Position numbers and translations under genes: made by a program | Source: Chamaelirium japonicum | Taxonomy: Eukaryota > Streptophyta > Magnoliopsida > Liliales > Melanthiaceae | Assembly: GCA_947650365.1 (NCBI GenBank) | Contig: CANTAL010000136.1 | Span: 372,001-436,000, forward strand | Direction of reading: 5' to 3' | DNA: 64,000 bases | Notes under the pieces: generated by a model | Seen by the model: the letters and a program-made list of their open reading frames with translations, nothing else | Told to the model about the DNA's origin: nothing | The model's database searches: none | In this document: one piece after another, positions 46,230 through 64,000 of the stretch | How positions within the stretch are numbered: the stretch's first letter is position 1 | Layout of the letters: each line of letters begins with the position of its first letter

Positions 46230-48040
46230 ATTCTAATTCATTCCCATGAATGTATCCATTCTAATTCATACGTACGATCCATTCTAATTCATTCATACGA
46301 TCCAATCTAATTCATTCACACGATCCATTCTAATTCATTCGCACGAAGGTATCCATTCTAATTCATTCGTACGATCCATTCTAATTCATTCGCACAATCT
46401 ATTCTAATTCATTCGTACGATCCATTCTAATTCATTAGCACGATCAATTCTAATTCATTCGTATGATCCATTCTATTTCATTCGTACGATCTATTCTTAC
46501 TTATTCGTACGATCCATTCTAATTCATTCGCAAGAATTTATCCATTCTAATTCATTCGTACGATCCATTCTAATTCATTCGCATGATCCATTCTAATTCA
46601 TTCATACGATCCATTCTAATTCATTCGTACGATCCATTCTAATTCATTCGCACGATCCATTCTAATTCATTCATACGATCCATTCTAATTCATTCATACA
46701 ATCCATTCTAATTCTTTCGCACGAATGTATCCATTCTAATTCATTCGTACGATCCACCCTAATTCCTTCGTATGATCCATTCTAATTCATTCGCACGAAT
46801 ATATCTATTCTAATTCATTCGTACGATCCATTCGAATTCATTCATACGATCCATTCTAATTCATTCATACGATCCATTCTAATTCATTCGCACGAATGTA
46901 TCCATTCTAATTCATTCGTATGATCCATTCTAATTAATTCGCACAATCTATTCTAATTTATTCGTACGATCCATTCTAATTCATTCGCACGATCCATTCT
47001 AATTAATTTGTACGATCCATTCTAATTCATTCATACAATTCATTCTAATTCTTTTGCACGAATGTATCCATTCTAATTCATTCATACGATCCATTCGAAT
47101 TCCTTCGTACTGTCCATTCTAATTCCTTCGTACGATCCATTCTAATTCATTCCCATGAATGTATCCATTCTAATTCATACGTACGATCCATTCTAATTCA
47201 TTCATACGATCCAATCTAATTCATTCACACGATCCATTCTAATTCATTCGCACGAAGGTATCCATTCTAATTCATTCGCACAATCTATTCTAATTCATTC
47301 GTACGATCCATTCTAATTCATTAGCACGATCAATTCTAATTCATTCGTATGATCCATTCTATTTCATTCGTACGATCTATTCTTACTTATTCGTACGATC
47401 CATTCTAATTCATTCGCAAGAATTTATCCATTCTAATTCATTCGTACGATCTATTCTAATTCATTCGCATGATCCATTCTAATTCATTCATACGATCCAT
47501 TCTAATTCATTCGTACGATCCATTCTAATTCATTCGCACGATCCATTCTAATTCATTCATACGATCCATTCTAATTCATTCATACAATCTATTCTAATTC
47601 TTTCGCACGAATGTATCCATTCTGATTCATTCGTACGATCCACCCTAATTCCTTCGTATGATCCATTCTAATTCATTCGCACGAATATATCTATTCTAAT
47701 TCATTCGTACGATCCATTCGAATTCATTCATACGATCCATTCTAATTCATTCATACGATCCATTCTAATTCATTCGCACGAATGTATCCATTCTAATTCA
47801 TTCGTATGATCCATTCTAATTAATTCGCACAATCTATTCTAATTTATTCGTACGATCCATTCTAATTCATTCGCACGATCCATTCTAATTAATTTGTACG
47901 ATCCATTCTAATTCATTCATACAATTCATTCTAATTCTTTTGCACGAATGTATCCATTCTAATTCATTCATACGATCCATTCTAATTCCTTCGTACTGTC
48001 CATTCTAATTCCTTCGTATGATCCATTCTAATTCATTCCC
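46230..48040 (+). repeat. 909/886-bp tandem duplication in satellite
   Basis: Two adjacent units share unusual variants: CGAAGGTATCC at 46,343 and 47,252, GCAAGAATTTATCC at 46,530 and 47,416, and TACTGTCC at 47,108 and 47,994. The offset is 909 at the first marker and 886 at the next two. The second unit lacks exactly one 23-bp monomer just after the first marker. Confidence 0.88.
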
Positions 48041-51000
48041 ATGAATGTATCCATTCTAATTCATACGTACGATCTATTCTAATTTATTCGTAGGATCCAA
48101 TCTAATTCATTCATTCGATCCATTCTATTTCATTCGTACGAATGTATCCATTCTAATTTATTCGTACGATCCATTCTAATTCATTTGCACAATCTATTCT
48201 AATTTATTCGTACGATCCATTCTAATTCATTAGCACGATCCATTCTAATTCATTCGTACGACCCATTCTATTTCATTCGTACGATCCATTCTTAAACATT
48301 CGTACGATCCATTCTAATTCATTCGCACAAATGTATCCATTCTAATTCATTCGCACGATCCATTCTAATTCATTCGCACGATCCATTCTAATCCATTCGT
48401 ACGATCCATTCTAATTCATTCGCACAATTTATTCTAATTCATTCGTACGATCCATTATAATTCGTTAGCACGATCCATTCTAATTCATTCGTACGATCCA
48501 TTCTATTTCATTCGTACGATCCATTCTTACTCATTCGTACGATCCATTCTTACTCATTCGCACGAATGTATCCATTCTAATTCATTCGTATGATCCATTC
48601 TAATTCATTTGCATGATCTATTCTAATTCATTCATACGATCCATTCTAATTCATTCGTACGATCCATTCTAATTCATTTGCACGATCCATTCTAATTCAT
48701 TCATATGATCTATTCTAATTCATTCGTACAATCCATTCTAATTCTTTCGCACGAATGTATCCATTCTAATTCATTCGTACGATCCACCCTAATTCCTTCG
48801 TATTATCCATTCTAATTCATTCGAACGAATGTATCCATTCTAATTCATTCATACGATCCATTCAAATTCATTCATACGATCCATTCTAATTCATTCATAC
48901 GATCTATTCTAATTCATTCGCACGAATGTATCCATTCTAATTCATTCGTACGATCCATTCTAATTCATTCGCACAATCTATTCTAATTCATTCGTACGAT
49001 CCATTCTAATTCATTCGCACGATCCATTCTAATTCATTTGCACGATCCATTCTAATTCATTCATACAATCCATTCTAATTATTTTGTACAAATGTTTCCA
49101 TTCTAATTCATTCGTACGATCCATTCTAATTCCTTCGTACGATCCATTATAATTCCTTCGTACGATCCATTCTAATTCCTTCGTACGATCCATTCTATTT
49201 CATTCGTATGATCCATTCTAATTCCTTCGTACGATCCTTTCTAATTCATTCCCATGAATGTATCCATTCTAATTCATACGTACGATCCATTCTAATTCAT
49301 TCATACGATCCAATCTAATACATTCATAAGATCCATTCTAATTTATTCGCACGAATGTATCCATTCTAATTCATTCGTACGATCCATTCTAATTCATTCG
49401 CATAATCTATTCTAATTCATTCGTACGATCCATTCTAATTCATTAGCACGATCCATTCTAATTCTTTCGTACGATCCATTCTATTTCATTCGTACGATCC
49501 ATTCTTACTCATTCGTACGATCCATTCTAATTCATTCGCACGAATGTATCCTTTCTAATTCATTCATACGACCCATTCTAATTCATTCGCATGATCCATT
49601 CTAATTCATTCATACGATCCATTCTAATTCATTCGTACGATCCATTCTAATTCATTCGCACGATCCATTCTAATTCATTCATACAATCCATTCTAATTAA
49701 TTCATACGATCCATTCTAATTCATTCACACAAATCTATCCATTCTAATTCATTCGTACGATCCATTCTAATTCATTCCCACAATCTATTCAAATTCATTC
49801 GTACGATCTATTCTAATTCATTAGCACGATCCATTCTAATTCATTCGTACAATCCATTCTGTTTCAATCGTACGATCCATACTTACTCATTCGTACGATC
49901 CATTCTAATTCATTCGCACGAATGTATCTATTCTAATTCATTCGTACGATCCATTCTAATTCATTCGCACGATCCATTCTAATTCGTTCATACGATCCAT
50001 TCTAATTCATTCGTACGATCCATTCTAATTCATTCGCACAATCTATTCTGATTTATTCATACGAACCATTCTAATTCATTAGCACGATCCATTCTAATTC
50101 ATTCGTACGATCCATTCTATTTCATTCGTACGATCCATTCTTACTCATTCGTATGATCCATTCTAATTCATTCGCACGATCCATTCTAATTCATTCGTAC
50201 GATCCATTCTAATTCATTCGTACGATCCATTCTAATTCATTCGCACGATCCATTCTAATTCATTCATACGATCCATTCTAATTCATTCATACAATCCGTT
50301 CTAATACTTTCGCACGAATGTATCCATTCTAATTCATTCGTACAATCCATTCTAATTCCTTCGTATGATCCATTCTAATTCATTCACACGAATGTATCCA
50401 TTCTAATTCAATCGTACGATCCATTCGAATTTATTCATACGATCCATTCTAATTCATTCATACGATTCATTCTAATTCATTCGCACGAATGTATCCATTC
50501 TAATTCATTTGTACGATCCATTCTAATTCATTCGTACGATCCATTCTAATTCATTCGCACGATCCATTCTAATTCATCCATACGATCCATTCTAATTCAT
50601 TCATACAATCCATTCTAATTCTTTCGCACGAATGTATCCATTCTAATTCATTCGTACGATCCACCCTAATTCCTTCGTATGATCCATTCTAATTCATTCG
50701 CACGAATGTATCTATTCTAATTCATTCGTACGATCCATTCGAATTCATTCATACGATCCATTCTAATTCATTGATACGATCTATTCTAATTCATTCGCAC
50801 GAATGTATCCATTCTAATTCATTCATATGATCCATTCTAATTCATTCGCACAATCTATTCTAATTCATTCGTACGATCCATTCTAATTTATTCGCACGAT
50901 CCATTCTAATTAATTTGTACGATCCATTCTAATTCATTCATACAATTCATTCTAATTCTTTTCCACGAATGTATCCATTCTAATTCATTCATACGATCCA

Positions 51001-51680
51001 TTCTAATTCCTTCGTACGATCCATTCTAATTCCTTCGTACGATCCATTCTAATTCATTCCCATAAATGTATCCATTCTAATTCATACGTACGATCCATTC
51101 TAATTTATTCATACGATCCAATCTAATTCATTCATACAATCCATTCTAATTCATTCGCACGAATGTATCCATTCTAATTCATTCGTACGATCCATTCTAA
51201 TTCATTCGCACAATCTATTCTAATTCATTCGTACGATCCATTCTAATTCATTAGCACGATCCATTCTAATTCATTCGTACGACCCATTCTATTTCATTCG
51301 TACGATCCATTCTTACTCATTCGTACGATCCATTCTAATTCATTCGCACCAATATATCCATTCTAATTCATTCGCACGATCCATTCTAATTCATTCATAC
51401 GATCCATTCTAATTCATTCGTACGATCCATTCTAATTTATTCGCACAATCTATTCTAATTCATTCGTACGATCCATTCTAATTCGTTAGCATGATCTATT
51501 CTAATTCATTCGTACGATCCATTCTATTTTATTCATACGATCCATTCTTACTCATTCGTACGATCCATTCTAATTCATTCGCACGAATGTATTCATTCTA
51601 ATTCATTCGTATGATCCATTCTAATTCAGTTGCACGATCTATTCTAATTCATTCATACAATCCATTCTAATTTATTCGTA

Positions 51681-51685
51681 CGATC
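51681..51685. repeat. Presumed target-site duplication (left copy)
   Basis: CGATC, the last five satellite bases before the LTR. Ty3/gypsy integrases normally duplicate 5 bp. The matching copy would lie beyond the window end, so this is inferred. Confidence 0.5.
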
Positions 51686-51880
51686 TGTTTGGGGATATTT
51701 TTTGCTAGTCCGTGCGGTCTACCTGCAAGGCAAAGAAAAACGTAAGAACGGCTGGCTCCCTTAGGAGCACAGACCCTCCGACGCTCAAGTCAGTCTCAGG
51801 TGATCAATCGAGAGCTGTTGTAGACGAAAGTGGTAGGGAAAAGGATTTCCAACCTGTACTTCGGAGCCTGGGGGTGTGCA

Positions 51881-51888
51881 TTTATAGA
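51881..51888 (-). promoter_or_regulatory. LTR TATA box (3' LTR copy)
   Basis: TCTATAAA on the minus strand, about 200 bases from the LTR's inner transcription end. It is also present in the 5' LTR at 63,660-63,667. Transcription of the element would start about 30 bases further left (near 51,850), making most of the LTR U3. The start is inferred from spacing only. Confidence 0.65.
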
Positions 51889-52423
51889 CATTGGCGACCT
51901 ACCAGTGCCCAACACGTGGAGGTTCTTTCCGGTGCCTTCTAGGCCCCCCACGTTCTGGCACACATGGGTCTCTGTCAGTCCTTGGGACTTGGACTCCTGA
52001 CATTCTTCATCGCGTAGCTTGCCTGACGAAGTAGTGGGGGAGAGTATCTTTTTTGTTGCTGCCAGATGGCTATTTCGGGAATGTTCAAGTCCGGGAGGTC
52101 CCGAACCGACTCGGGCGGGCTTCCGTGGACTACAATCATCCACGTAGCTTCAGAGGGGTTTCGACACCTGGCAGCCTTTGTCACGAGTTGGGTTCTTAGG
52201 AGGGCAACCTCTTCGACAACGGGAGCGGCCTGACGATCTCTTTGAGTGCTCTACCGGTGTTTGTTGATGCCCTTCTAAGTTTTCTCTTTGGTCAAAGCTC
52301 CCGCACGAGCCTTGGGGCGGGTTCCAATGTGAGAGGGGGGCGAGGGCGTGCTCCCGCGCGAGTTCCTCATCCTTTGGATTCCTGGGGTCTATGAGATCCA
52401 TAGAAAGGGGCGAACTGATGGCG

Positions 52424-52912
52424 AGCTCCAGGGGCTGGGGCGAGCTCCGTTGCGAGCTGGGGGGCGAGCTCCTTGCGAGCTAGGAGGCGTGCTCCTCGCG
52501 AGCGGGGAGCGAGCTCCTTGCGAGCTAGGAGGCGTGCTCCTCGCGAGCAGGGAGCGAGCTCCTTGTGAGCTAGGGTAGCGAGCTCCTCGCGAGCTGGGGG
52601 GGGGGGGGGGGCGAGCTCCTTACGAGCTGGGGGGGCGAGCTCCTTACGAGCTGTGGGGCGAGCTACTCGCGGGCTGTTTGGAGCGAGCTCCTTGCGAGTT
52701 AGGCGAGCTCCCGGGTGAGCTGGGTGCGTGCTCACACAAGTGCCCATACAGCCCAATGTGGATCTCGCTCCCAGTTGAGATGAGTCGGCGAGCTGGTGGC
52801 GGGCTCCTCACGAGCGGGAGGGCGAGCTGCTCTTGGCGAGCTGGGGGGGGCGAGCCCTTTGGCGAGCTGGGGGGTGAGCTCTTGGTGAGCTGTGGGCGAG
52901 CTCCTTGAGATC
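52424..52912. repeat. GAGCTC-rich minisatellite in LTR U3
   Basis: A GC-rich tract of imperfect repeats built on GCGAGCTCCTTGCGAGCT. Three clear units start at 52,464, 52,509 and 52,554 (45 bp each) and alternate GAGCTCCTTGCGAGCT with GTGCTCCTCGCGAGC. An uninterrupted run of 16 G follows at 52,596-52,611. Apparent reading frames across it are by-products of the repeat. Confidence 0.85.
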
Positions 52913-52958
52913 CTCCTGTGTGATGTTCAAAATAAAGGGTTTTCGGCTACCCCCAACA

Positions 52959-52973: not shown

Positions 52974-53547
52974 GGAGTGGCTGACGAGAGCGAGCCACTT
53001 GCTCAGGAGTTCTAACGAGCATACTATTTCGTGGCTTCCTCTCCTTACGATTTTAGCTTTGGTGGGCTTGGGACCAAGCTCCCATCCTTTGAAATGTGCC
53101 TGATATCAATGTCTGCCGCAACAATCGTTGGGCGGGCCGGGAGCTGTAGCCACGAGCGACCTCCCTCCGGTGCGAGCTTGCCACACGCGGACAGGGTCTA
53201 CTTCGGGCGAGCTGCGGGCACCTACCGCAGGCGATCTCGTGGCTTGGGCCTCGCACCAAAATCTCCGGCAGTCGTATCACCTTAAATGCGATACGAGACT
53301 CGAGATGGATACAATGAATCTCATCATGAGATCCCGATCGGCGCTCGCCACATGTCTCATTCTCATTCGCCTTTGTTTTTGTATGGAAATGACGGTGTCG
53401 GTGCCGGCGCAGCTTTTTTCCACGCGTGGTCCATGCGGCGCTTCGTGATTGGAGGAAGACGAGCTGTTGCTTCAACCACTGTCGTGTCGCTTCACTGGGC
53501 GCACTCGAGCATTAACTGTGGCCCGATTCACCTGCCTCTTACCCACC
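52974..53547. other. Spacer and upstream region of the antisense gene
   Basis: About 570 bases between the polypurine tract and the antisense gene's TATA box. Open frames here on both strands look accidental. An inverted CCAAT motif (ATTGG, 53,448-53,452) lies about 100 bases before the TATA box. I see no repeat and no recognisable protein. Confidence 0.5.
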
Positions 53548-53555
53548 TATAAATA
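53548..53555 (+). promoter_or_regulatory. TATA box of the antisense gene
   Basis: A consensus plant TATA box, TATAAATA, in CACCTATAAATAGGGG. A start site about 30 bases downstream (near 53,580) would give a leader of about 70 bases before the ATG at 53,650. With the intron further on, it suggests that the gene is transcribed from its own promoter, against the direction of gag-pol. Confidence 0.7.
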
Positions 53556-53649
53556 GGGGATGGGGGGCGATTTTTTACCGCTGCGTGAAAAACAGCTCTC
53601 CCTCCTCCTGCTTTTTTAGCTCGCAGCTCGCCAGCAACCTTTCGCTTTC

Positions 53650-54480
53650 ATGGCTTCTTCTGCTGCCGCTTCTTCTTCCGCTGCTGCTGCTGCTGCGTCC
53701 TCCCGAGAGGGGCCTCTCAATGTCGCCCCTATCTCGGTGCGAGCTCTGGGCTCAGGGGAAAAGGCTCCTCCGAAGGAGCCCGCCGTCGTCTGGCTTCATG
53801 ACATCGGGGGTGCGCCCATCCCCGAGAGTCTACGAACCGCGGTGGGCATCCCTCCGGAGCTCGCTATTCTTCCCCTCCCGAGCTCTGGGAGGCCGCTCTC
53901 TGGCACCGCGGTCTCCGTGGGGCAGATATGGTCAGGGCTCCGACTGCCCCTGAACCATCTGGCCAGTAAGCTCCTGGAGCTGGCGGGCTTATGCCCCGCC
54001 CAGCTTCCGGGAAACTCGTGGGGGATCCTTTACGGGCTTTCTCGAATCGAGGAAGCCCTAAACGTGAGGATCCCCCTGGCCTACCTCCTGAAGAAGTGGT
54101 TCCTCAAATCGGGACCCGTCTTCAGCAAGGTAGACTGTGGTCTATTCTACCTCACGGGTCGCCCCAGCGAGGTGCTACCGTTCTCCACCGTTGAGAACAA
54201 GGACCGGTACTGGAAGGAGTACCCATTCGTGATCGATGGCGAATGGCGAGGTCCTCGAGCCGGCATCCCCTCTCTTCCCGGCAGACCGCCTCTTCCTGTC
54301 TTCAAGGAGATCACGGAATACCGGGCCAAGGGGAAAAAGTGCATCGCCGTAGCCCGAGAGAAATCTCTCGACGAGGTGATACTGTACTTCCTCGGGGGAC
54401 GAACCCCCGAGAAGGTCCTTGCACCGGACTTTTCCTTCCTCTGGAATGATCTTCGGGCCGGAACCATCACCACCCGATAG
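53650..54480 (+). CDS. Antisense extra ORF of Tat element, N-terminal domain (276 aa)
   Basis: Codes for 276 residues and runs opposite to gag-pol. Residues 1-20 are a Ser/Ala run. A compact domain follows at about 60-190, containing GLRLPLNHLASKLLELAGL, a G-W-G motif, GLSRIEEALNV and WFLKSGPVFSKVDCGLFYL, and ending in a W-rich segment (RYWKEYPFVIDGEWRG). The pattern resembles the plant 'putative gypsy type transposon' family (Transposase_28), which in Tat elements is the extra ORF between pol and the 3' LTR; gene 23 of Grande is a known antisense case. Its biochemical role is unknown. The start is the first ATG after a TATA box 100 bases upstream. The frame ends in TAG (54,478-54,480), but the same frame continues with similar composition to 54,705, so this stop may be a mutation and the protein longer. 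Confidence 0.8.
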   Translation: MASSAAASSSAAAAAASSREGPLNVAPISVRALGSGEKAPPKEPAVVWLHDIGGAPIPESLRTAVGIPPELAILPLPSSGRPLSGTAVSVGQIWSGLRLPLNHLASKLLELAGLCPAQLPGNSWGILYGLSRIEEALNVRIPLAYLLKKWFLKSGPVFSKVDCGLFYLTGRPSEVLPFSTVENKDRYWKEYPFVIDGEWRGPRAGIPSLPGRPPLPVFKEITEYRAKGKKCIAVAREKSLDEVILYFLGGRTPEKVLAPDFSFLWNDLRAGTITTR

Positions 54481-56611
54481 AAGGTGATGCGGAAGAAGGT
54501 CGCGGTCTCCCGGCACGCTGGCTCGACCTCCTCGGCGGCCCCGGCGGCCTCCGGGGTGGGGACTTCGGCGAAGAAGGGGAAGAAGCGGGCTTCCCCAATC
54601 AAGGTCGCCGACCAGGAACCCTCGAGATGCTCTGCGAGGAGGACGTCCCCCCACCGCCGCCTCCAGTCGCAAAGCAGCCCCAGGTCAGGCGACCTTCCCT
54701 TGTAATATTTCTCCGAGGGTCCCAATCCCGGAGCCTCGGCATCGTCGCATTACTTTTGTCGAGGCAGAGGATCTGCGCATCGAGCTTCTTCTCAGCATGG
54801 CGGAAGTGGAGTCCCCAATGGCTGAAGTGTTGATGCGCGGATTGCCAGGTGACCCTTCTAAAACTTTGTTTGTTGCGGTGATGACCCCAGAGATGGAGGG
54901 CGCCACTCAGAAGAAGAAGAAGAAGAAAAAGAAGAAAGCTCCGTCTGCCCGCCCGACGGGAGAGGACGATGTCGTTCGGCAGGCTCGCGAAGCCTTCCAA
55001 TGAGTCCTTGAGGAGCGAAGGAAGGTCGCCCTCGCAGAGGCGGACTTGGGATCGGGCGACGATTTCAGCACCGCCTCTAGCTCGGATGATGAGGGGCGGG
55101 CTTCGGAAGATGAGCCCGCCCCTACAACTGCGGTGCCTCCCCCGCCCTTCGAGGGGCCGGCTTCCACCTCTCCGCACTTGCCCGCACCGAGCGTGCCCCC
55201 ACCGCAGGCCGTGCTCACCCTAGTGAGCATGGCCACTCCTGGGCACTCCGGGCGCCGCCAACGCGCCCGCCCGCGCCCCGACGGCCTCTCCTTCGTTCGC
55301 CCCCGCTCCCAGCGCACCGTCACCTCCTGCCGCCCCTGTTCCTAGCGCGCCCACCGTTGCGCCTCCTGCCATGCCAACAGCTGTACCAGTGCCCAGCGCG
55401 CCTACCACTCCCACGACCTCTCCCATTGTCGCAGCGCCCGACGCTCCCGCGGCCTCTCCCATCGCCGCAGTGCCCAACGCCCCCGCGGCCTCTCCCACCG
55501 CCGCAGTGCCCGACGCTCCCACGGCCTTGGAGGGGCCAGCAGCAACCCCTACTCCCTGCTCTCCTGCCAGCGTTCCAGCGGCCAACGCCCCAGTGGCCTC
55601 GCCAACCACCGCCCCGCTCGACACTCCAGCGGTTCCTTCCCTTACGGAGGAGCTGAGCAGGCTGGTCTACTAGTCTCCGAACCTGGGGGCCATCCTGGAG
55701 GATCTTCCGAGTTCAAGCTCGGAAGCCTCGGACCCCGACTTGCCCGGCAAAGGGGGAGCCGTCGCGCCGCCCCCCGTCAATGAAGGGGGTGCCGGCATTC
55801 AAGAGACCGAGGCCGCCACCCCCGCTGCCATTGCGCCTTCCCCAGCTGCCCCGACCGAGGTTAGCCAAGTGGGTTCCTCCTCAGGCGACCCCGAGCGCGC
55901 CCCTCACTATATGTGGGAGATCCTGGGGTGCAATATTTTCGCCCGGACTCCCTACATCGTCCTCGTCAACCGGCTTGCCGAGGTAAGATTTCCTTTTCGC
56001 TTCCTTGTCTCAAATCTCTCTTCTTGTTCTAACTTTCTTCTAACTGTTTTGCTTCGCCGTAGGTGGAGTGGGTCAGCCGGGCTCTGGCCGACGAGGTCGC
56101 TGGTGTCGCGGGGGATATGGTCTCCCTCTACGATGATACTCTCCACGGCTCGGAGAGGAGAGTAGACGAGCATATCCACCGTCTTCACCAGCTAGACCGA
56201 TCCGGCGAGCTCCCGGCTGAGGTGGACCGGCTGCGCCAGTAGGTCGCCTCCGCAGACACGGAGGTCGGCCAACTGCGCCAGCGGGCTACCACTTTTACCA
56301 CGGCGCTGGCTTTGGTCGAGGACGCACGCGCTCGCACCCTTTCGGATCTGCAAGAGGCTCTTCAAGCCAAAGAGGCCACCCAGAAAGAAATTGCCGAGCT
56401 CCAAAGCCAGGTGGCGGCCTCCAGATATAAGATCGCGGCGCTGAAGGAGGCGCATCTTCAAGATCTGCACTTCCAGCGGGGCCGGCTCCAATCGCAGCTC
56501 GACGAGCTCCTCCGAAAAGGCGCACACGACACCATTGCGAAGTACAAGGCCGAAAGGTCGAAGAAGAGGAAGCGCGGCGATGATGAGGGTGCTGCTGCAG
56601 GCCAAAACTAG
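54481..56611 (+). pseudogene. Antisense extra gene, remaining part (Pro/Ala linker and coiled-coil), broken
   Basis: Downstream continuation of the antisense gene. The frame of the N-terminal domain runs on to 54,705. A shift near 54.6-54.7 kb leads into a frame with FVEAEDLRIELLLSMAEVE, then a Lys run (about 54,912-54,940) and an acidic Ser/Asp stretch. A second shift near 55.2-55.3 kb leads into a long Ala/Pro-rich linker of repeated APS/TAAVP type, then HYMWEILGCNIFARTPYIVL up to the splice donor at 55,983. After the intron a heptad-like coiled-coil (about 56,200-56,520) follows, with a basic KKRKR near the C-terminus that could be a nuclear signal. In-frame stops lie at 55,001 (TGA), 55,671 (TAG) and 56,240 (TAG); the last stop is 56,609-56,611. 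The exon frames on both sides of the intron agree (phase 0), so this was a real spliced gene that has since decayed. Confidence 0.72.
55983..56062 (+). other. Spliceosomal intron of the antisense gene (80 bp)
   Basis: Donor GAG|GTAAGATTTCC at 55,983 and acceptor TTCGCCGTAG|GTGGAG ending at 56,062. In between the sequence is T-rich, with a branch-like TTCTAAC about 25 bases before the acceptor. It lies in a GC-rich coding region and is markedly AT-rich, as plant introns are. Removing it joins two open frames in phase 0, from RLAE to VEWVSRAL. Splicing on the plus strand shows that the gene was expressed antisense to the retrotransposon, since a genomic RNA would carry the intron in reverse. 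Confidence 0.8.
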
Positions 56612-57075
56612 GCTAGTTTTCTTTTGTAACCTCCGAACTTTGTAACTAAAAAAGATAAATGAAAAATTCATCTTCTTGAGCTCGTCTTTGTGCTCTTTTC
56701 TCCGTATCGTTTTCTTTACTTATGGGTCTGCTTCAAAATCTTTGCAGCGATCTTGAGGGCCATACCCCAGGCGAGACAACTAATTCGATTTATCCACTTC
56801 TATTTTAAAATATGCAAACGGAAAACTTGGCATGCTCGCTAAATCTCAATATAACCTCTGAGCCCGGAAAAAAGCGAACCAAATAACTTCAAAAATTTCC
56901 CTATGCTCAGAGATTTAAATCAATTTTATTTTAAAGAAAACTAGTAAGTGCTAGCTGCCCCCTGCCCGGTTAATTACCCCCAAGGATCCTGATCACTGGA
57001 CATGCCCTTCGAGGGGTTACCAAGGGATGTTTGGGTTACCTGAAAGGGGGATCGCCCTTCTCAAGTTTCCCTAGA
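56612..57075. other. Convergent intergenic region between antisense gene and integrase
   Basis: AT-richer sequence after the antisense gene's stop. It holds AAAAAAGATAAATGAAAAA (56,646-56,664), a plausible plant polyadenylation region for the plus-strand gene. I see no reading frame of substance. It forms part of the element's 3' UTR on the minus strand. Confidence 0.55.
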
Positions 57076-57084
57076 TCACACTGG

Positions 57085-57318
57085 GATGCTTCCGCTCATG
57101 GCTGGTGGGCGCGAAGGATCCCGGCTAGGCTTTAAGTCCCCTAAACAGCGGACTACCCTGGAAATCTCAAGGTCGCTCACTGGCGGCCTTTGAGGAGCCC
57201 AGTCTTGCTTTAAGCCCATATTGCGGCGGGCTACCCCGAGAATCTCAAGGTCGCTTTCCGGCGGACTCTGAGGAACCCGAATCTGCTTTAAGTCTGCACG
57301 ACGGCGGACTGTACCTTT
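57085..57318 (-). repeat. 78-bp tandem repeats in the 3' UTR (three units)
   Basis: Three imperfect units with the anchor CTTTAAG at 57,130, 57,208 and 57,286, exactly 78 bases apart. Other shared pieces are AATCTCAAGGTCGCT and GCGG(A/G)CTAC. Because 78 is a multiple of three, an accidental 86-codon frame spans them on the minus strand. Tandem repeats between pol and the 3' LTR are a known habit of Tat/Ogre elements and can seed satellites. These repeats do not resemble the neighbouring 23-bp satellite. Confidence 0.8.
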
Positions 57319-57413: not shown

Positions 57414-58736
57414 TTAGGCGTAAAACTTCCGAAGATGCGTAGCGTTCCAAGGTCGCTCAAGAAGGTCGCCCTCAGCAGTCATTAACTGGTAGGCCCCAGA
57501 TCCTCGCGCCTGATGCACTACGTAGGGGCCTTCCCAGTTCGCCGCGAGCTTCCCAGCGTTGGGCTCTTGCGTGTTTGCGAACACCTTTCTCATTATTAGA
57601 TCGCCGGTTTTGAATGCTCAATGGCGAACTTTCTTATCATAGGCGTGCTTCATTTCTTGTCTGTACCCGGCAAGGTGCAGGTTGGCGTGCTCCCGTCGCT
57701 CTTCGAGCTGATCGAGGGAGTTAGCAAGCAAATCGTCATTGTCGACCTCATCTGCTACGAGCCTCCTCTCGGTAGGCAGCTCGGCCTCCACGGGGAGTAC
57801 AGCTTCGCACCCATAAGCAAGACTGAAAGGTGACTCGCCAGTTGAGCATCGGGGAGTAGTGCGATAGGCCCACAACACGCCGTCGAGCTCCTGCTCCCAT
57901 AAACCCTTCTTTCCTTCCAACCTTTTCTTGAGGTTGTCGAGGATTACCCGATTGGTGGCCTCGGCCTGCCCATTGCTTTGAGGGTACCTTGGGGAGGAAA
58001 ACCTTAGGTCGACCCTATATTCGGCGCAAAAGCTTTTGATTAAGCGATTATCGAACTGGCGACCATTGTCGGTGATAAGTATTCGGGGCAGACCGAACCG
58101 ACAAAAAATGTTCTTCCAAAGGAAGTCTTTCACCTGCTTTTCACCTATCTTAGCTAGCGGGACCGCTTCCACCCATTTAGTGAAGTAGTCGGTGGCTACT
58201 AAGATGAATTTCTTCTGCCGGGCTGACTGAGGGAAAGGTCCCACAATGTCAAACCCCCACTACTGAAATGGCCAAGGGCTCACCAGAGGGCGCAGCTCTA
58301 CTGCGGGCATGTGAATTGTTGTGGCATGCTTCTGGCATTGAATGCACCTTCTGGCGACCTTCAACGCATCTTGCTCGAGGGTGGGCCACCAATATCCTTG
58401 TCGCCTTACTTTTGTAGCTAGAGACCGCCCACCAGCGTGATTCCCCAGCTCGCCGGAATGAATGCGATTAAAAACCTCTTCGGTTTTGGGGTGCTCAACA
58501 CAATGAAGATTTGGCCCGCCGAAGGATTTTCTAAAAAGGCGATCCCAGCGAATGAGATAGCGACCAGCGCACTTCTCCATTCGCCGAGCTTCTTCTTTGT
58601 CCTCCGGGAGCTTGCCCTTTTGGAGAAAACGAATAATAGGCGCGGTCCATCCGCCAGGTGACACGTCAGCCGCCACGTGGTTGACGGCAGGCTCTGTTAG
58701 TTGGAGTCGAGACTGACTTTGGACTTCGATATAAAT
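57414..58736 (-). pseudogene. Integrase (pol), broken
   Basis: Inserts the element's DNA into the genome. One frame runs from the end of the second RNase H to TAA at 57,414-57,416. The N-terminal zinc module is H-X6-H-X30-C-X2-C (RIHSGELGNHAG ... RRCIQC). The catalytic core keeps all three acidic residues: D in FDIVGPFP (58,248-58,250), D in ITDNGRQF and E in SNGQAEATN, the last two separated by exactly 35 residues. The C-terminal part (KTGDLIMRKVF, WEGPYVV, LRKFYA) follows, and there is no chromodomain, which separates it from chromoviruses. Two in-frame stops break it: TAG at 58,260 before WGFDIVG and TGA at 57,618 before AFKTGDL. Both fit a single C-to-T change (CAG to TAG, CGA to TGA). 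Confidence 0.92.
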
Positions 58737-59130: not shown

Positions 59131-59721
59131 CTAATCCCGTACTTCCACAATTCCTGCTTGAGGGAGCTCGCTCTGGTTGACCAAGAACCTCGCCTTCCCA
59201 GGGTGTGCCTTAGTTGGCTCATCCTCCTGGTACTGGACCGGTTCTTCTATGGGGAAGTCCGCCAAGAAATTAGCAAGGGCCTGTCCTTTGACCGCAACTC
59301 GAGGGACATATTCCAGGCCGTAGGCGGCGAGCTCGGCGGACCATCGATAGAGCCTCCCTGCCACTGAGGGCCTAGAAAGTGCGCTCTTCAAAGGGTGCTC
59401 CGTAATAACTTTGACGGTATGCACCGAGAAGTATGGGTAAAGTTTTCTCGCGGTAAGGACCAAGGCCAACGCCACCTTCTCGATTGGTCGATACCGGAGC
59501 TCGGCAGGGAGCATTGTATGGCTTACGAAATAAACAGGCCGCTCCACCTTCGCTTCTTCCACCACGAGGACCCCGCTCACCGCATTCTCGGTGACCGCAA
59601 GATACACGCCCAGCTCGGCGCCATCCTTAGGTGCCACTAGGATTGGCGGGCTCGCTAGATAGTCCTTGATCTTTTGAAAGGCGCGCTCATACTTTTCATC
59701 CCAACAAATGCTCCCTCCTTT
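59131..59721 (-). pseudogene. RNase H domain of reverse transcriptase
   Basis: Degrades RNA in the RNA:DNA hybrid. It follows the reverse transcriptase in the same frame after one TGA (59,722). Recognisable blocks are WDEKYERAFQKIKDYLASPP, LGVYLAVTENAVSGVLVVEE, RPVYFVSHTMLPAELRY, IEKVALALVLTARKLYPYF and LSRPSVAGRLYRWSAELAAY. Spacing and order match the gypsy-type RNase H of Tat elements. The frame ends at TAG 59,131, where the second RNase H begins. Confidence 0.9.
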
Positions 59722-60720
59722 TCAAAGTAGCTCGAAAAGAGGTTGGCAATTATCTGAGGATTTGGAGATGAACCGATTTAGTGTGGCGATTCGCCCGCTC
59801 AGTCTCTGGACCTCTTGTCGGGTTCTTGGTGCGGGCATTTCGACAAGTGCTCGTATTTGCCCAGGGTCGGCCTCGATCCCCCTGTGGGTGACCAGGTACC
59901 CTAGGAATTTCCCCGAAGTCACCCCGAATGCGCACTTTGCCGGGTTTAGCCTCATTTGGTACTTTCTTAACACTTCGAAGATTTCGCAGAGATCGGCGAC
60001 ATGCCCCTCTCGCTCTCGACTCTTTACCAGGAGGTTATCTACATAAAATTCGATATTTCTACCGATCTGATCCTTAAACATCTGAGTGACTAACCTTTGG
60101 TAGGTCGCTCCGGCTTTTTTGAGTCCGAACGGCATTACCCGATAACAGAAAAGCTTCTGGTAGCCTGCCCCAGAATAGAAAGCGGTTTTCTCCTGATCGT
60201 CAATGTGGAGAGGTATCTGATTATACCCAGAATACCCGTCCATAAAGGATAAGGCCTGGAATCCGATTGCGGCGTCGACCAGCGCGCCTATTCATGGAAA
60301 AGGGAATCCGTCCTTCGGGCATGCTTTGTTGAGGTCGGAGAAGTCGATGCACACTCTGACCGCCCCACTTTTCTTGGGTACCGCCACGATATTGGAGATC
60401 CAATCGGGGAAGTGCGCCTCGCGGATAAAGCCCGCTCGCTCCAGCTTTTTCTATCTCTGCTGCCACCGCGGCGGACTTTGCAGCGGGTATGTGCCGAGCT
60501 TTTTGTTTCACCGGTGGGAAGTCTCGCAAGGTGTGCAGACGATGCCAGGCGACCTCTGGGTCAATCCCTGGCATGTCTTCGAAGCTCCAGGCGAACACGT
60601 CATGATATTCCCTGAGTAGGTTGGTTAAGGTTAGGACCTCGCCCTTAGTTAGCGAGGTCCCAAGATGGACGATCCTCGGTCCGTCCTTGCAACCGATGTT
60701 GACTTCTTGTAGCGGCTCGG
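59722..60720 (-). pseudogene. Reverse transcriptase (pol), broken, YVDN active site
   Basis: Copies element RNA into DNA. The N-terminal part (REYHDVFAWSFEDMPGIDP, then PPVKQKAR) is in one frame up to about 60,446. There one extra base in a T5 run (60,446-60,450, plus strand) moves the sequence to a second frame containing FIREAHFPDWISNIVAVPKK, VCIDFSDLNKACPKD, LSFMDGYSGYNQI, the MPFGLKKAGATYQRLV block and FLGYLVTHRGIEADP. The catalytic box reads YVDN (Asn codon at 60,034-60,036) where YVDD is expected; losing the second aspartate should abolish activity. A TGA at 60,292-60,294 falls where Arg is usual (after FPFP), and another at 59,722 also falls at a usual Arg. Another frameshift lies upstream near 60,720-60,745. 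Confidence 0.93.
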
Positions 60721-60873: not shown

Positions 60874-61545
60874 CTAGGAGGGCGCGGGCCTCTTGGCTTC
60901 AGCGACCTCTATGTCCATGAGGTAAAAGACATCCTGCTCGCATCTAGTAGCTATGACCTGGTCCCCTCGAATAACCACGACCCCGCTCGTGGTGGGAAAC
61001 TTGAGAGCCTGATGATTGGGCGAAGACACCGCATTCATTTGCCTCAACCAAGGTCGCCCAAGGATAGCGTTAAACGCGGAAAGCCCGTCTACCACGGCGA
61101 AGCAGACTTGGCGAGCCTCCGGGCCCGCGGTTACAGTGAAGGTTATTTCTCCTACCACTTTAGCGACCTCACCGGTGAATCCACTGAGGGAACTCATCGA
61201 GGGAGACAGATCGACTTGTCTCAACCCCATTTGCTGGAAGGCCGACAAGAACCGAATGTCCACGGCGCTTCCCGAATCCACCAGAGCTCGCCTTACTTCG
61301 ATATTGGCCATCATAAGGCGTATGACAAGAGGATCATTGTGGGGGGTTATGACCCCAGCCAGGTCATCTTCCGAGAACCAGAGAAAATCACGGGCTTCTA
61401 ACCTCGGCGTCTGGAGCAAAGCAGGGGTTAGAGAGACGGAATGTACCTTTCGAGCTCGCTCTATTTATCTGACCTACCGTCGAACTTCATTGCTGGATCT
61501 CGGGCCACTCAGGCACCCGCTAATGGTGTAGTAGATCGTCGGTCC
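60874..61545 (-). pseudogene. Aspartic protease (pol), partly intact
   Basis: Cuts the gag-pol polyprotein. The active-site block ALVDSGSAVDI (Asp codon at 61,276-61,278) and the later AFNAILGRPWLRQM, a typical retropepsin flap/ILGRP region, are both present. So are the family's leading EARDFLWFSEDDLAG and PHNDPLVI. The clean open stretch is 61,419-60,874. The upstream linker in the same frame (with TISG and EVRR) carries TAG at 61,474 and TAA at 61,465. It shares its frame with the zinc knuckle, as expected if gag and pol were one polyprotein. The frame ends in a stop at 60,874 about 150 bases before the reverse transcriptase part. Confidence 0.88.
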
Positions 61546-61793: not shown

Positions 61794-63374
61794 AGGGTAC
61801 TGAACGAAAGGTTCATTCCGGATCTGGTGCAGGATTTGCCCCGGGGAGTTGGTCAGTACGGTGAAATCCCACTCCCCATGACCCGGAGGTAGGCGCCAGT
61901 GCGCCGGCCTTCCAGCGATCACCGCGGGGGCTTCTGCGGGCTGTGCGACTGGAGCTGCGGGTGGTCCGGGCAAAGGCGCCACCGGGGGTATCTCCCGCCT
62001 CTCTATGGCTTTAACGACGAGAGGTCGCAAAGCCGGAGGAGGTCACTGCTCAACTGCCTTCCCCTTCCGGTCTAACACCGCATCTTCAAGCTTGATGTGT
62101 TGCTGGACAAGGGCGAAGAGCTCGACCATCGTGCGGGGATCTTTGATCACCAGCACATTATGAAGTTTACTTCTCTCGGGGAGGGTGTTCCGGAAAGCGC
62201 TTACCGTCGTGCGATCTTGGCCGACCGCGTCGTCCAGAGCGAGGTAGGTGCTTCGAAAACGCGTTGCGAAGCTTCGAAGGGTTTCGTGGGTTCCCATGGC
62301 CAAGGTGAAGAGAGACTCAATCCTCTTAGGAGGTTGCCTGTTGCAGCGGTATTGCTCCAGAAACAATCTGGAGAGAGTAGGGAAGTCTGGAATGGTGCCC
62401 GATGGTAATTTGTGGAACCAGTTTAGCGCCGAGCCCATCAAGCTACTCGGGAAAGCCCGGCACAAGACATGGTCTTGGTCCCGGAAAAATAACAGCTTTC
62501 GGTAAGCCAAGAGATGGTCGACAGGATCTTGCGATCCATCGAACAGTACAAACTTGGGCAGGGTCCAATGGTGAGGGAAACCTCCTTGGTGCACCTCACT
62601 CGTGAAGGGCGAGCTCCCTCCGTAGGCGGCGAGATCCTCCAATAGATCCACCGGTGCACTAGGTCGCTACCAGTGCCCAGGGAGAACTCCCAAAGGCGGC
62701 TGCGCAGGTCCTAGGCGGTCGCGTACGCTTCCTTTCGGGAGGTCCGGGCCCGTATCGTGGCGACCTGAACGGGGTTCCTCCTGGCGACCTTCCCGGCGTC
62801 CACCGGTGGGCTGCTTTGCTACGAGAGTGGGTTGATGAGAGGCGGTCACCTCTTGGGCAGCACCAGGTATCACCTCCGTGGGCTCCTTCCCTCGTCGGCG
62901 ATGGCGCGGGTCACGGTCTCTCTCGAGAGATCTCGCCTCCGACTCGTCGGAGTCGGCGCTCCTGCCTCGGCGGTGGGGAAGGGTTACTCGTGAGGTCGCC
63001 TTGTTGCTAGACCGCTGGGTCACCAGCTTTTGCAACCTTGTAAGCGGGGTTTCGCGCACCCTGCGCACGGCCGTTCTCTCGGCCTGGGGCTCCGGATGGG
63101 AAGTCCGTCGGGCAGGTACGGCCATGTGCAGACGCGACAAGACAGGAGGTCGCACGGGGGATGGAACCCTCGCTAGCCCAGATCGCCGGCTTACCATCGG
63201 GACCTGACGCAGCCGCGTCAGTTCCTCCATCATGGCCCGCCGGGTGGCCAACATCTCCAACTGGAGCTGGTCACTGAGCGGGACAAGAGGATGGGGGGTC
63301 TTAGCAGGAGGTTTGCTGCATATAGACCCCGCACGGGTCCTTGTTCACCTGCGTCCCCTCTCCGCCGGAGTCAT
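61794..63374 (-). pseudogene. Gag (capsid protein), broken
   Basis: Structural protein of the particle. I chose the ATG at 63,374 because it lies about 70 bases after the primer binding site and shares the frame with all downstream gag blocks. The order is LEMLATRRAMMEELTRLRQV, a basic Arg-rich region (RRGRSADSDESEARSLERDR), then the capsid domain with FVLFDGSQDPVDHLLAY, LMGSALNWFHKLPSGTI, FLEQYRCNRQPPKRIESL and LRSFATRFRSTYLAL, which matches the plant retrotransposon gag family. After it comes a Pro/Ala-rich linker. In-frame stops lie at 63,345 (TGA), 62,667 (TAG) and 62,043 (TGA). The frame is lost at the G6 run just before the zinc knuckle. Confidence 0.9.
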
Positions 63375-63464: not shown

Positions 63465-64000
63465 TGTTTGGGGATATTTTTTACTGGTCCGTGCGGTCTA
63501 CCTGCAAGGCAAAGAAAAATATAAGAACGGCTGGCTCCCTTAGGAGCGCAGGCCCTCCGACACTCAAGTCAGTCTCAGGTGATCAATCGAGAGCTGTTGT
63601 AGACGAAAGTGGTAGGGAAAAGGATTTCCAACCTGTACTTCGGAGCCTGGGGGGGTGCATTTATAGACATTGGCGACCTACCGATGCCCAACACGTGGAG
63701 GTTCTTTCCGGTGCCTTCTAGGCCACCCACGTTCTGGCTCACATGGGTCTCTGTCAGTCCTTGGGACTTGGACTCCTGACATTCTTCGTCGTGTAGCTTG
63801 CCTGACGAAGTAGTGGGGGAGAGTATTTTTTTTGTTGCTGCCAGATGGCTATTTCGGGAATGTTCAAGTCCGGGAGGTCCCGAACCGACTCGGGCGGGCT
63901 TTCATGGACTACAATCGTCCACGTAGCTTCAGAGGGGTTTCGACACCTGGCAGCCTTTGTCACGAGTCGGGCTCTTAGGAGGGCGACCCCTTCGACAACG
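63465..64000 (-). repeat. 5' LTR (partial, cut by window end)
   Basis: The inner 536 bases of the 5' LTR. It aligns base for base with 51,686-52,221, with about 22 differences. It includes the TATA box at 63,660-63,667. The rest, including the U3 minisatellite and the outer border, lies beyond the window. Confidence 0.92.
63660..63667 (-). promoter_or_regulatory. LTR TATA box (5' LTR, promoter of gag-pol)
   Basis: TCTATAAA on the minus strand, identical to the 3' LTR copy. This one would drive gag-pol, with a start near 63,630 and R-U5 running to 63,465. Confidence 0.65.

Follow-up and report, generated by a model that had tools for sequence, protein, structure and literature searches.

Antisense ORFs of the TRP28 type are present in 97% of the Retand clusters treated in the available text of PMC11963269, where they occupy the long region between pol and the 3′ LTR. 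In maize, the Grande element carries gene23, an antisense accessory gene that is transcribed from its own internal promoter (PMC7264820) and gives rise to a nuclear protein (PMC7264820, PMC11963269). Elements of this type are thus already known to have an antisense TRP28 gene with a promoter of its own and a nuclear product. Expression as genes has been established for few families of Retand antisense ORFs, and their origin and function are named as open in the available parts of both papers. According to a December 2025 review, as far as its text is available, plant LTR retrotransposons are generally devoid of introns, with Ogre and EVADE constituting notable exceptions (PMC12786077). In these two, spliceosomal introns allow the element transcripts themselves to be spliced alternatively or in part, apparently on the sense strand (PMC12786077, PMC6317226), and introns and antisense ORFs go unmentioned in the accessible portion of a study of sunflower elements with additional ORFs (PMC11728184). 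HBZ of HTLV-1 is an antisense, spliced, and polyadenylated gene of a reverse-transcribing element, with transcripts that begin in the 3′ LTR (PMC1459196, in part). Finally, the accessible text of PMC9548176 describes the I-DsqI homing endonuclease gene, a protein-coding gene that lies antisense within a mobile element and has a 47-nt spliceosomal intron, the splicing of which has been demonstrated in vivo; its host, however, is a group I intron of slime mould rDNA, not a retrotransposon.

The locus described here lies in the window, i.e., the whole 64,000-nucleotide stretch of Chamaelirium japonicum DNA that was analysed. A Ty3/gypsy element resides on the minus strand and encloses a plus-strand gene at 53650–56611, antisense to the element (Table 1), an arrangement that the sequence-only reading had recognized and to which the LTRs and the pol and gag fragments, all on the minus strand, conform. 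The two LTRs align at 94.7% identity (1274 columns, 20 of which are gaps), and the domain order Gag-PR-RT-RH-INT, taken from minus-strand coordinates and including a weak PR match, fits Ty3/gypsy. The element is best called Retand-like (Tat clade), a name based on domain order and region layout rather than on the RT tree by which the lineage is formally defined. Its pol-to-3′ LTR region of ~4.66 kb, measured from the end of the integrase ORF at 57618 to the LTR at 52958, contains an antisense ORF as in Retand and falls within the 2.9–6.6 kb given in the available text of PMC11963269. The LTRs of 1273 and 1255 bp slightly exceed the 315–1194 bp of the clusters in that text, a range that describes the sample of PMC11963269 rather than defining the lineage. 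In all likelihood, the feature represents the antisense TRP28-type accessory gene of this Retand-like element and is, at the level of the family, a genuine spliced protein gene. It shares position, orientation, and domain type with the Retand antisense TRP28 ORFs. PMC11963269, however, counts ORFs of at least 600 bp, and the word intron is absent from the available texts of PMC11963269 and PMC7264820, whereas the window family has two exons separated by a conserved intron.

Table 1. Coordinates of the antisense gene and its host element (window numbering)
Feature	Position	Strand	Remarks
3′ LTR	51686..52958	-	TG...CA, 1273 bp; flanking 5-bp target-site duplication CGATC
TATA box	53548..53555	+	TATAAATA; internal region, outside LTR
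Exon 1 of antisense gene	53650..55982	+	broken by premature stops and frame changes in window copy
TRP28/Transposase_28-like domain	53926..54066	+	residues 93–139; under Pfam cut-off
Pro/Ala/Ser-rich linker	55220..55640	+	contains 36-bp tandem repeat
Spliceosomal-type intron	55983..56062	+	80 nt, phase 0, AG|GTAAGA...CTAAC...GTAG|GTGGAG
Branch-point-like block TAACTG	56041..56046	+	CTAAC at 56040–56044; columns conserved 0.90–1.00
Exon 2	56063..56611	+	182-codon frame and stop TAG at 56609–56611; coiled coil; one premature stop in window copy
Basic KKRKR motif, nuclear-localisation-like	56561..56575	+	near C-terminus
Probable 3′ end	56612..56690	+	TGTAA motifs, AAATGAA-like stretch, T-rich tract; read by eye in copies' downstream sequences
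Integrase fragment of pol (rve)	57618..58244	-	profile match E 1.2e-12
RNase H fragment of pol	59131..59637	-	profile match E 3.5e-16
Reverse transcriptase fragment of pol	59722..60243	-	profile match E 1.6e-20
Aspartic protease fragment, probable	60874..61419	-	E 0.099, weak, under cut-off
Gag fragment (Retrotrans_gag)	62043..62651	-	profile match E 2.5e-10
5′ LTR	63465..64000	-	1255 bp in all; runs past window to ~64719 (window numbering, read from L048)

The intron was characterized in 59 copies, the one in the window and 58 retrieved with queries that did not contain it. All 52 copies spanning the site retain the intron, with a GT donor in 52 and an AG acceptor in 51, so that both the textbook borders proposed by the sequence-only reading and the conservation sought among family members are borne out. 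Its length ranges from 72 to 91 nt, a YTRAY motif lies somewhere within it in 51/52 copies, and the mean pyrimidine fraction of its 3′ part is 0.71. The interior evolves no slower than fourfold-degenerate sites (K of 0.49, compared with 0.34 for the fourfold sites and 0.11 for second codon positions). GT-AG ends, a branch point, a pyrimidine-rich 3′ part, a non-coding interior, and retention across copies, the hallmarks of a spliceosomal intron, are therefore all found, and on these sequence grounds the intron is genuine by every comparative test run. Folding of the RNA of the intron region yielded nothing special (z -0.68). The opposing explanation, that the 80-bp stretch amounts to an indel, coding or neutral, which is never spliced, could draw on the exon 1 frame of the window, open through the stretch (ORF 55740–56165) and ending in a frame other than that of exon 2, and on five copies, all of a single clade with a 75-nt form, that can be read in frame into exon 2. 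Yet the other 47 of 52 copies cannot be so read, because of an in-frame stop in 35 and a frame-shifting length in another 12; splice and branch motifs are retained while the interior drifts, and the splice signals are kept even in the 75-nt clade. An unspliced indel is thus extremely improbable, and the suspicion that intact relatives might code through the segment applies to that one clade, in which, alone among the sampled copies, intron retention would possibly preserve the frame.

The persistence of the intron through retrotransposition, also anticipated from the sequence, is apparent at two further levels. Genome-wide, junction patterns matched 450 intron-bearing and 0 intronless sites, and the sensitivity of the two patterns is similar, since 41/52 and 40/52 copies fit them or their flanks. 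By parsimony on an N-domain tree, 16 of whose 49 inner branches are weakly supported, intron length has changed at least 21 times while the intron was never lost. The genomic RNA carries the intron reversed and should therefore escape splicing, which would explain why retrotransposition has not removed it; unlike the introns of Ogre and EVADE, the one in the window family belongs to an antisense gene and should resist such removal. A sense-strand intron was considered and rejected, its ends in the genomic RNA reading CT...AC.

The sequence-only reading took the gene to be self-contained, and for the window copy this view had to be abandoned. Compared with the related copy L012, the stretch from 54.48 to 56.24 kb shows four premature stops, one of which falls in exon 2, and no fewer than two changes of frame; by its sequence it is a pseudogene that retains TATA box and splice sites but from which the protein cannot be made. 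Among the 52 site-spanning copies, exon 1 is open for at least 690 codons back from the donor in 7, the 182-codon exon 2 is uninterrupted in 17, and both exons are open in only 3, for which a protein of 895–968 residues is predicted. Selection is nonetheless seen at the codon level. For the N-domain (55 copies), dN/dS decreases with the distance of the pairs, from 0.50 for close to 0.14 for distant ones, and for exon 2 it amounts to 0.17–0.21 in distant pairs. The proposed frame is the sole open one in the N-domain, the other five being open in 0/55 copies. The antisense frame rc1, whose dN/dS is likewise low at 0.24 for exon 2 and 0.28 for the N-domain, was rejected as a coding frame, as it is open in 0/51 and 0/55 copies, respectively. 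These codon patterns indicate that selection is acting on the protein. A captured host gene, carried as a passenger and now free of selection, would agree with the 49/52 sampled copies, and the window copy, that lack two open exons, and genomic capture would leave just such an intron-bearing antisense gene; but the lowest dN/dS values are those of the most distant pairs, and Retand elements throughout flowering plants typically have the domain (PMC11963269, available text), which makes a passenger that is no longer selected highly improbable. The antisense transcript could also act chiefly as RNA, regulating the genomic RNA as antisense or double-stranded RNA with its coding capacity being incidental. 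Its complementarity to the genomic RNA would extend over ~3 kb, and regulators of both kinds are named as possible in the accessible texts of PMC7264820 and PMC12786077. Codon-level selection (dN/dS down to 0.14–0.2) and the single open frame of the N-domain speak against this, however, and complementarity gains nothing from a conserved intron, so that a primarily RNA-based role is unlikely. Where the sequence-only reading left the choice between protein gene, antisense regulator, or both, the protein role is consequently the better supported, with an RNA role possible alongside.

The predicted protein is modular. A Transposase_28-like N-terminus had been proposed, and the likeness is detectable but weak: the window gene scores 12.6 bits where the curated cut-off is 26.2, all nine N-domains scanned match the TRP28 (PF04195) profile at E values up to 1 (best 0.0036), and whole exon-1 proteins match at E 1 in two of three cases and not in the third. 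In contrast to the Retand ORFs, the domain match thus stays under the Pfam cut-off, although TRP28 is typical rather than universal there (97% of Retand clusters in the available text of PMC11963269). No homologues were found in a large protein collection, either at E 0.001 with the window N-domain or at E 0.1 with a nine-row alignment; solved structures gave a single match at chance level (E 0.5), and NCBIfam gave coiled-coil-type matches only, far under cut-offs. A single-sequence structure prediction of the window protein was discarded (pLDDT 35.5). The remaining modules turned out as predicted from the letters: a Pro/Ala linker (P 28%, A 23% in the equivalent stretch of L012), a coiled coil in exon 2, where the heptad pattern of L012 was matched by 1/5000 shuffles, and the KKRKR C-terminus. 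A run of at least four K/R occurs in 16/17 copies with an uninterrupted exon 2, which is only suggestive of a nuclear-localisation signal. The gene23 protein of Grande is nuclear, and the protein predicted here may be so as well.

The consensus TATA box noted at 53548 is confirmed by the copies, 58/59 of which keep TATAAAWA, 92–114 nt upstream of the start codon position (53650 in the window). The putative promoter is thus situated outside the LTR, ~590 bp into the internal part of the element. The 11-mer CTATAAATAGG at this site, composed after the site had been viewed, occurs once in the window versus 0.01 times expected. At the other end of the gene, the motifs following exon 2 resemble a plant poly(A) signal. 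The copies have conserved TATA box, intron, and reading frame alike.

The antisense gene is very probably transcribed, spliced, and translated independently, and for these steps as well as for location and function we infer the following course. First, RNA polymerase II would start at the internal TATA promoter between 3′ LTR and pol and transcribe against the element. The spliceosome would then excise the single small intron, and the mRNA would terminate in the plant-type poly(A) region short of pol. Its translation would yield a protein composed of the TRP28-like domain, the Pro/Ala linker, the coiled coil, and the basic nuclear-localisation-like motif. By analogy with HBZ, a coiled-coil bZIP protein, this protein most likely acts in the nucleus to regulate how the element itself is expressed or replicated. 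Like HBZ, the gene would be antisense, spliced, and polyadenylated (PMC1459196, available text), but its putative promoter is internal rather than in the 3′ LTR, and no sequence relation is claimed. An internal promoter, predicted from the TATA box, would liken the gene to gene23, and splicing, demonstrated in vivo for I-DsqI, is deduced from comparative evidence.

The genome also contains a second, distant TRP28 family, which bears on the origin of the gene. Over exon 1 of L012, its PF04195 proteins show 25–32% identity. This family has two introns, one of which is placed similarly to that of the window family: a phase-0 interruption, the second of the two and found in 14/14 loci, directly precedes a coiled-coil exon, which is open in 5/6 longer loci. 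In both families, the coiled-coil exon comprises 182 codons and follows a phase-0 intron. Position, phase, and exon length only suggest that the introns are homologous, because profile comparison of the intron-adjacent C-terminal exons yielded no significant match between the families. Tentatively, the antisense TRP28-type gene may go back to an ancient gene with introns, of cellular or viral provenance, that was captured in reverse from genomic DNA and whose introns have been protected from retrotransposition ever since, a possibility that we consider less likely than not.

What is new in these findings is the conserved intron, which did not turn up in the accessible literature. It bears on the expression of antisense genes because splice signals do not persist unless the plus strand is transcribed and its transcript spliced. 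A junction-spanning read would identify the antisense gene unambiguously, as opposed to read-through or genomic DNA, and annotation based on ORFs, in which the C-terminal coiled-coil exon is overlooked, would be corrected by the intron. A family in which hundreds of copies have an intron extends the picture of intron exceptions drawn in the available text of PMC12786077. If the gene was indeed captured, antisense placement would keep a spliced host-type gene apart from the genomic RNA, a retroelement's antisense gene would have retained splicing-linked export and regulation, and the source of the Retand antisense region would be answered.

The antisense gene that the sequence-only reading noticed inside a minus-strand, Retand-like (Tat-clade) Ty3/gypsy element is, with its conserved intron, a real feature, but the state of the copy in the window had been misjudged. 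Compared with L012, a related copy from the same genome, the window copy is a pseudogene: its coding path is interrupted by four premature stops and changes frame at least twice. It nevertheless retains the TATA box, the donor, the branch-point-like motif, and the acceptor. The gene sits between the integrase and the 3′ LTR of its host element, whose LTRs share 94.7% identity across 1274 aligned columns and have TG...CA ends, with a flanking target duplication, CGATC; the host genome comprises 1.52 Gb. The element is inserted in a 23-bp minisatellite. In another copy (L011), the reverse complement of this minisatellite occupies the place of the missing exon 2 remainder, so the element family may meet the array repeatedly.

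Features of the element, its antisense gene and the adjoining repeats (window numbering)
Feature	Position	Strand	Remarks
23-bp minisatellite	47000-51685		TAATTCATTCGTACGATCCATTC; about 197 copies in the part scanned
LTR	51686-52958	minus	
GAGCTC-rich tandem array	52437-52910		23- and 45-bp units; present in both LTRs
TATA box	53548-53555		
Antisense gene (TRP28 type)	53650-56611	plus	
Exon 1	53650-55982	plus	
Intron	55983-56062	plus	80 nt, phase 0
Exon 2	56063-56611	plus	
78-bp repeat	57148-57310		about 2 copies, between antisense-gene end and integrase
Gag, protease (weak match), RT, RNase H, integrase fragments	62.7-57.6 kb		separate ORFs
LTR	63465 to ~64719	minus	last 719 bp outside the window, taken from fetched locus L048

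Further copies were collected with two queries, both devoid of the intron: 53650-54477 yielded 39 loci besides the window and 53480-53720 another 19 (58 fetched), the best 40 of 1538 and 1770 candidates, respectively, being scored. The intron site is spanned by 52 of the 59 copies, window included (five have no match there and two a partial one), and the intron is present in all 52. A GT donor is found in every case, whereas the AG acceptor, an AG preceding the donor, and a YTRAY motif each occur in 51; the sole acceptor lost (AA) belongs to L044, an otherwise typical intron. Lengths range from 72 to 91 nt and are spread over all three frame classes (30, 9, and 13 copies). A stop in the exon-1 frame lies within the intron in 35/52 copies, and in-frame read-through is impossible in 47. 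The remaining five (L052, L054, L055, L058, and L059) constitute one diverged clade in which a retained intron would preserve the frame, because its 75 nt are divisible by three and contain no in-frame stop.

In the copy alignment, there is hardly any variation in the donor GTAA or at the exon edges, whereas the intron interior for the most part drifts. Pairwise distance amounts to 0.28 in the interior, compared with 0.16 and 0.13 for the exons on either side, and the intron is the most divergent segment in 949 of 1326 copy pairs. Among 17 copies (136 pairs), K falls from 0.49 for the intron to 0.34 for fourfold sites and 0.11 for second codon positions; intron and fourfold-site values correlate at only 0.37. 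Parsimony on a tree of the N-domain (the N-terminal, Transposase_28-like region of exon 1), 16 of whose 49 inner branches are weakly supported, yields at least 21 intron-length changes and zero intron losses. Genome-wide, an exact pattern of the intron-bearing junction that permits intron lengths of 67-95 nt matches 450 times, 208 of them forward and 242 reverse, while its reversed control does not match at all. The corresponding intronless pattern has 0 matches in the genome. As 41 of the 52 copies fit the former and the flanks of 40 the latter, both patterns are about equally sensitive.

The encoded protein bears marks of selection. Exon 2 consists of exactly 182 uninterrupted codons in 17/52 copies and exhibits a dN/dS of 0.17-0.21 in pairs with dS >0.15 and of 0.32-0.40 in the six closest pairs. 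Alternative frames give 1.3 to 1.7, save one antisense frame at 0.24 that is open in 0/51 copies. Across 55 copies, dN/dS of the N-domain is 0.50 for the closest pairs and drops to 0.14 for the most distant, the course that selection on active lineages combined with decay of inserted copies would produce. The proposed frame is open in 29 of these copies and each other frame in none; an antisense frame with a dN/dS of 0.28 is likewise open in 0/55. Exon 1 is open for at least 690 codons back from the donor in 7/52 copies, or in 6/52 if a stricter start motif is required; three of the 52 have both exons open. The predicted protein combines an N-terminal domain weakly matching Transposase_28, a Pro/Ala linker, a heptad pattern (seen in L012, where one in 5000 shuffles reaches it), and a basic motif (present in all but one of the 17 copies having an uninterrupted exon 2). 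TATAAAWA is found 92-114 nt upstream of the start codon position in 58/59 copies. This count is slightly favoured by the sampling, since the query that retrieved 19 of the 58 fetched copies included the TATA box, whereas the one that retrieved the other 39 did not. Downstream of the stop, TGTAA motifs, an AAATGAA-like stretch, and T-rich sequence are seen by eye in most copies shown.

A genome search with PF04195, in which the best 150 of 5979 candidates were scored, returned at least 137 matches, those listed lying above the curated cut-off. Fourteen of these loci, picked mostly for long open frames, represent a second, distant TRP28 family (L068-L081); the six longer ones are 25-32% identical to exon 1 of L012. 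All 14 share two interruptions at the same positions. A count by eye from the aligned loci gives 12 with GT and 13 with AG for the first interruption, and 13 and 14, respectively, for the second. The middle exon of 137 nt is open in 12/14 loci. The second intron is in phase 0 and lies immediately 5′ of the coiled-coil exon, which, among the six longer loci, has 182 codons in five and is broken in one. Since comparison of exon sequences between the two families gave no significant match, a common origin of the phase-0 intron is suggested, and not more. GC replaces the GT donor in the second intron of L073 and the first of L081, perhaps reflecting GC-AG introns or decay, and L075 contains a local partial duplication. 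Despite the missing sequence match, the terminal exon comprises 182 codons in both families (L012 2720-3265; L068-L072).

According to PMC11963269, antisense TRP28 ORFs characterise Retand elements, occurring in 97% of clusters, and gene23 of Grande has been described with its own promoter and a nuclear location (PMC7264820, PMC11963269). The word "intron" is absent from both papers, and PMC7264820 calls for a search for antisense and spliced transcripts. In a December 2025 review, Ogre and EVADE stand out among plant LTR elements as notable exceptions that do have introns (PMC12786077). In the papers covered by the literature search, no report was recognised that gives an antisense gene of this type an intron; the search did not extend to the original papers on Grande, RIRE2, and the Tat extra ORFs, which may mention one. 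The closest proven parallel found, also an antisense gene that has an intron and belongs to a mobile element, is I-DsqI (PMC9548176).

Selection keeps splice signals only where a plus-strand transcript arises and is spliced. Because the signals have been kept, the antisense gene was very probably expressed while the element family was spreading. The intron persists because the genomic RNA is the opposite strand; as no intronless junction was found, cDNA copied from the spliced mRNA seems not to re-enter the element. Given a protein under selection with a nuclear-type motif, the product may most simply be regarded as a regulator, by analogy with HBZ, a known regulator (PMC1459196), and with the role that PMC11963269 and PMC7264820 give as a proposal for antisense proteins of other Retand elements.
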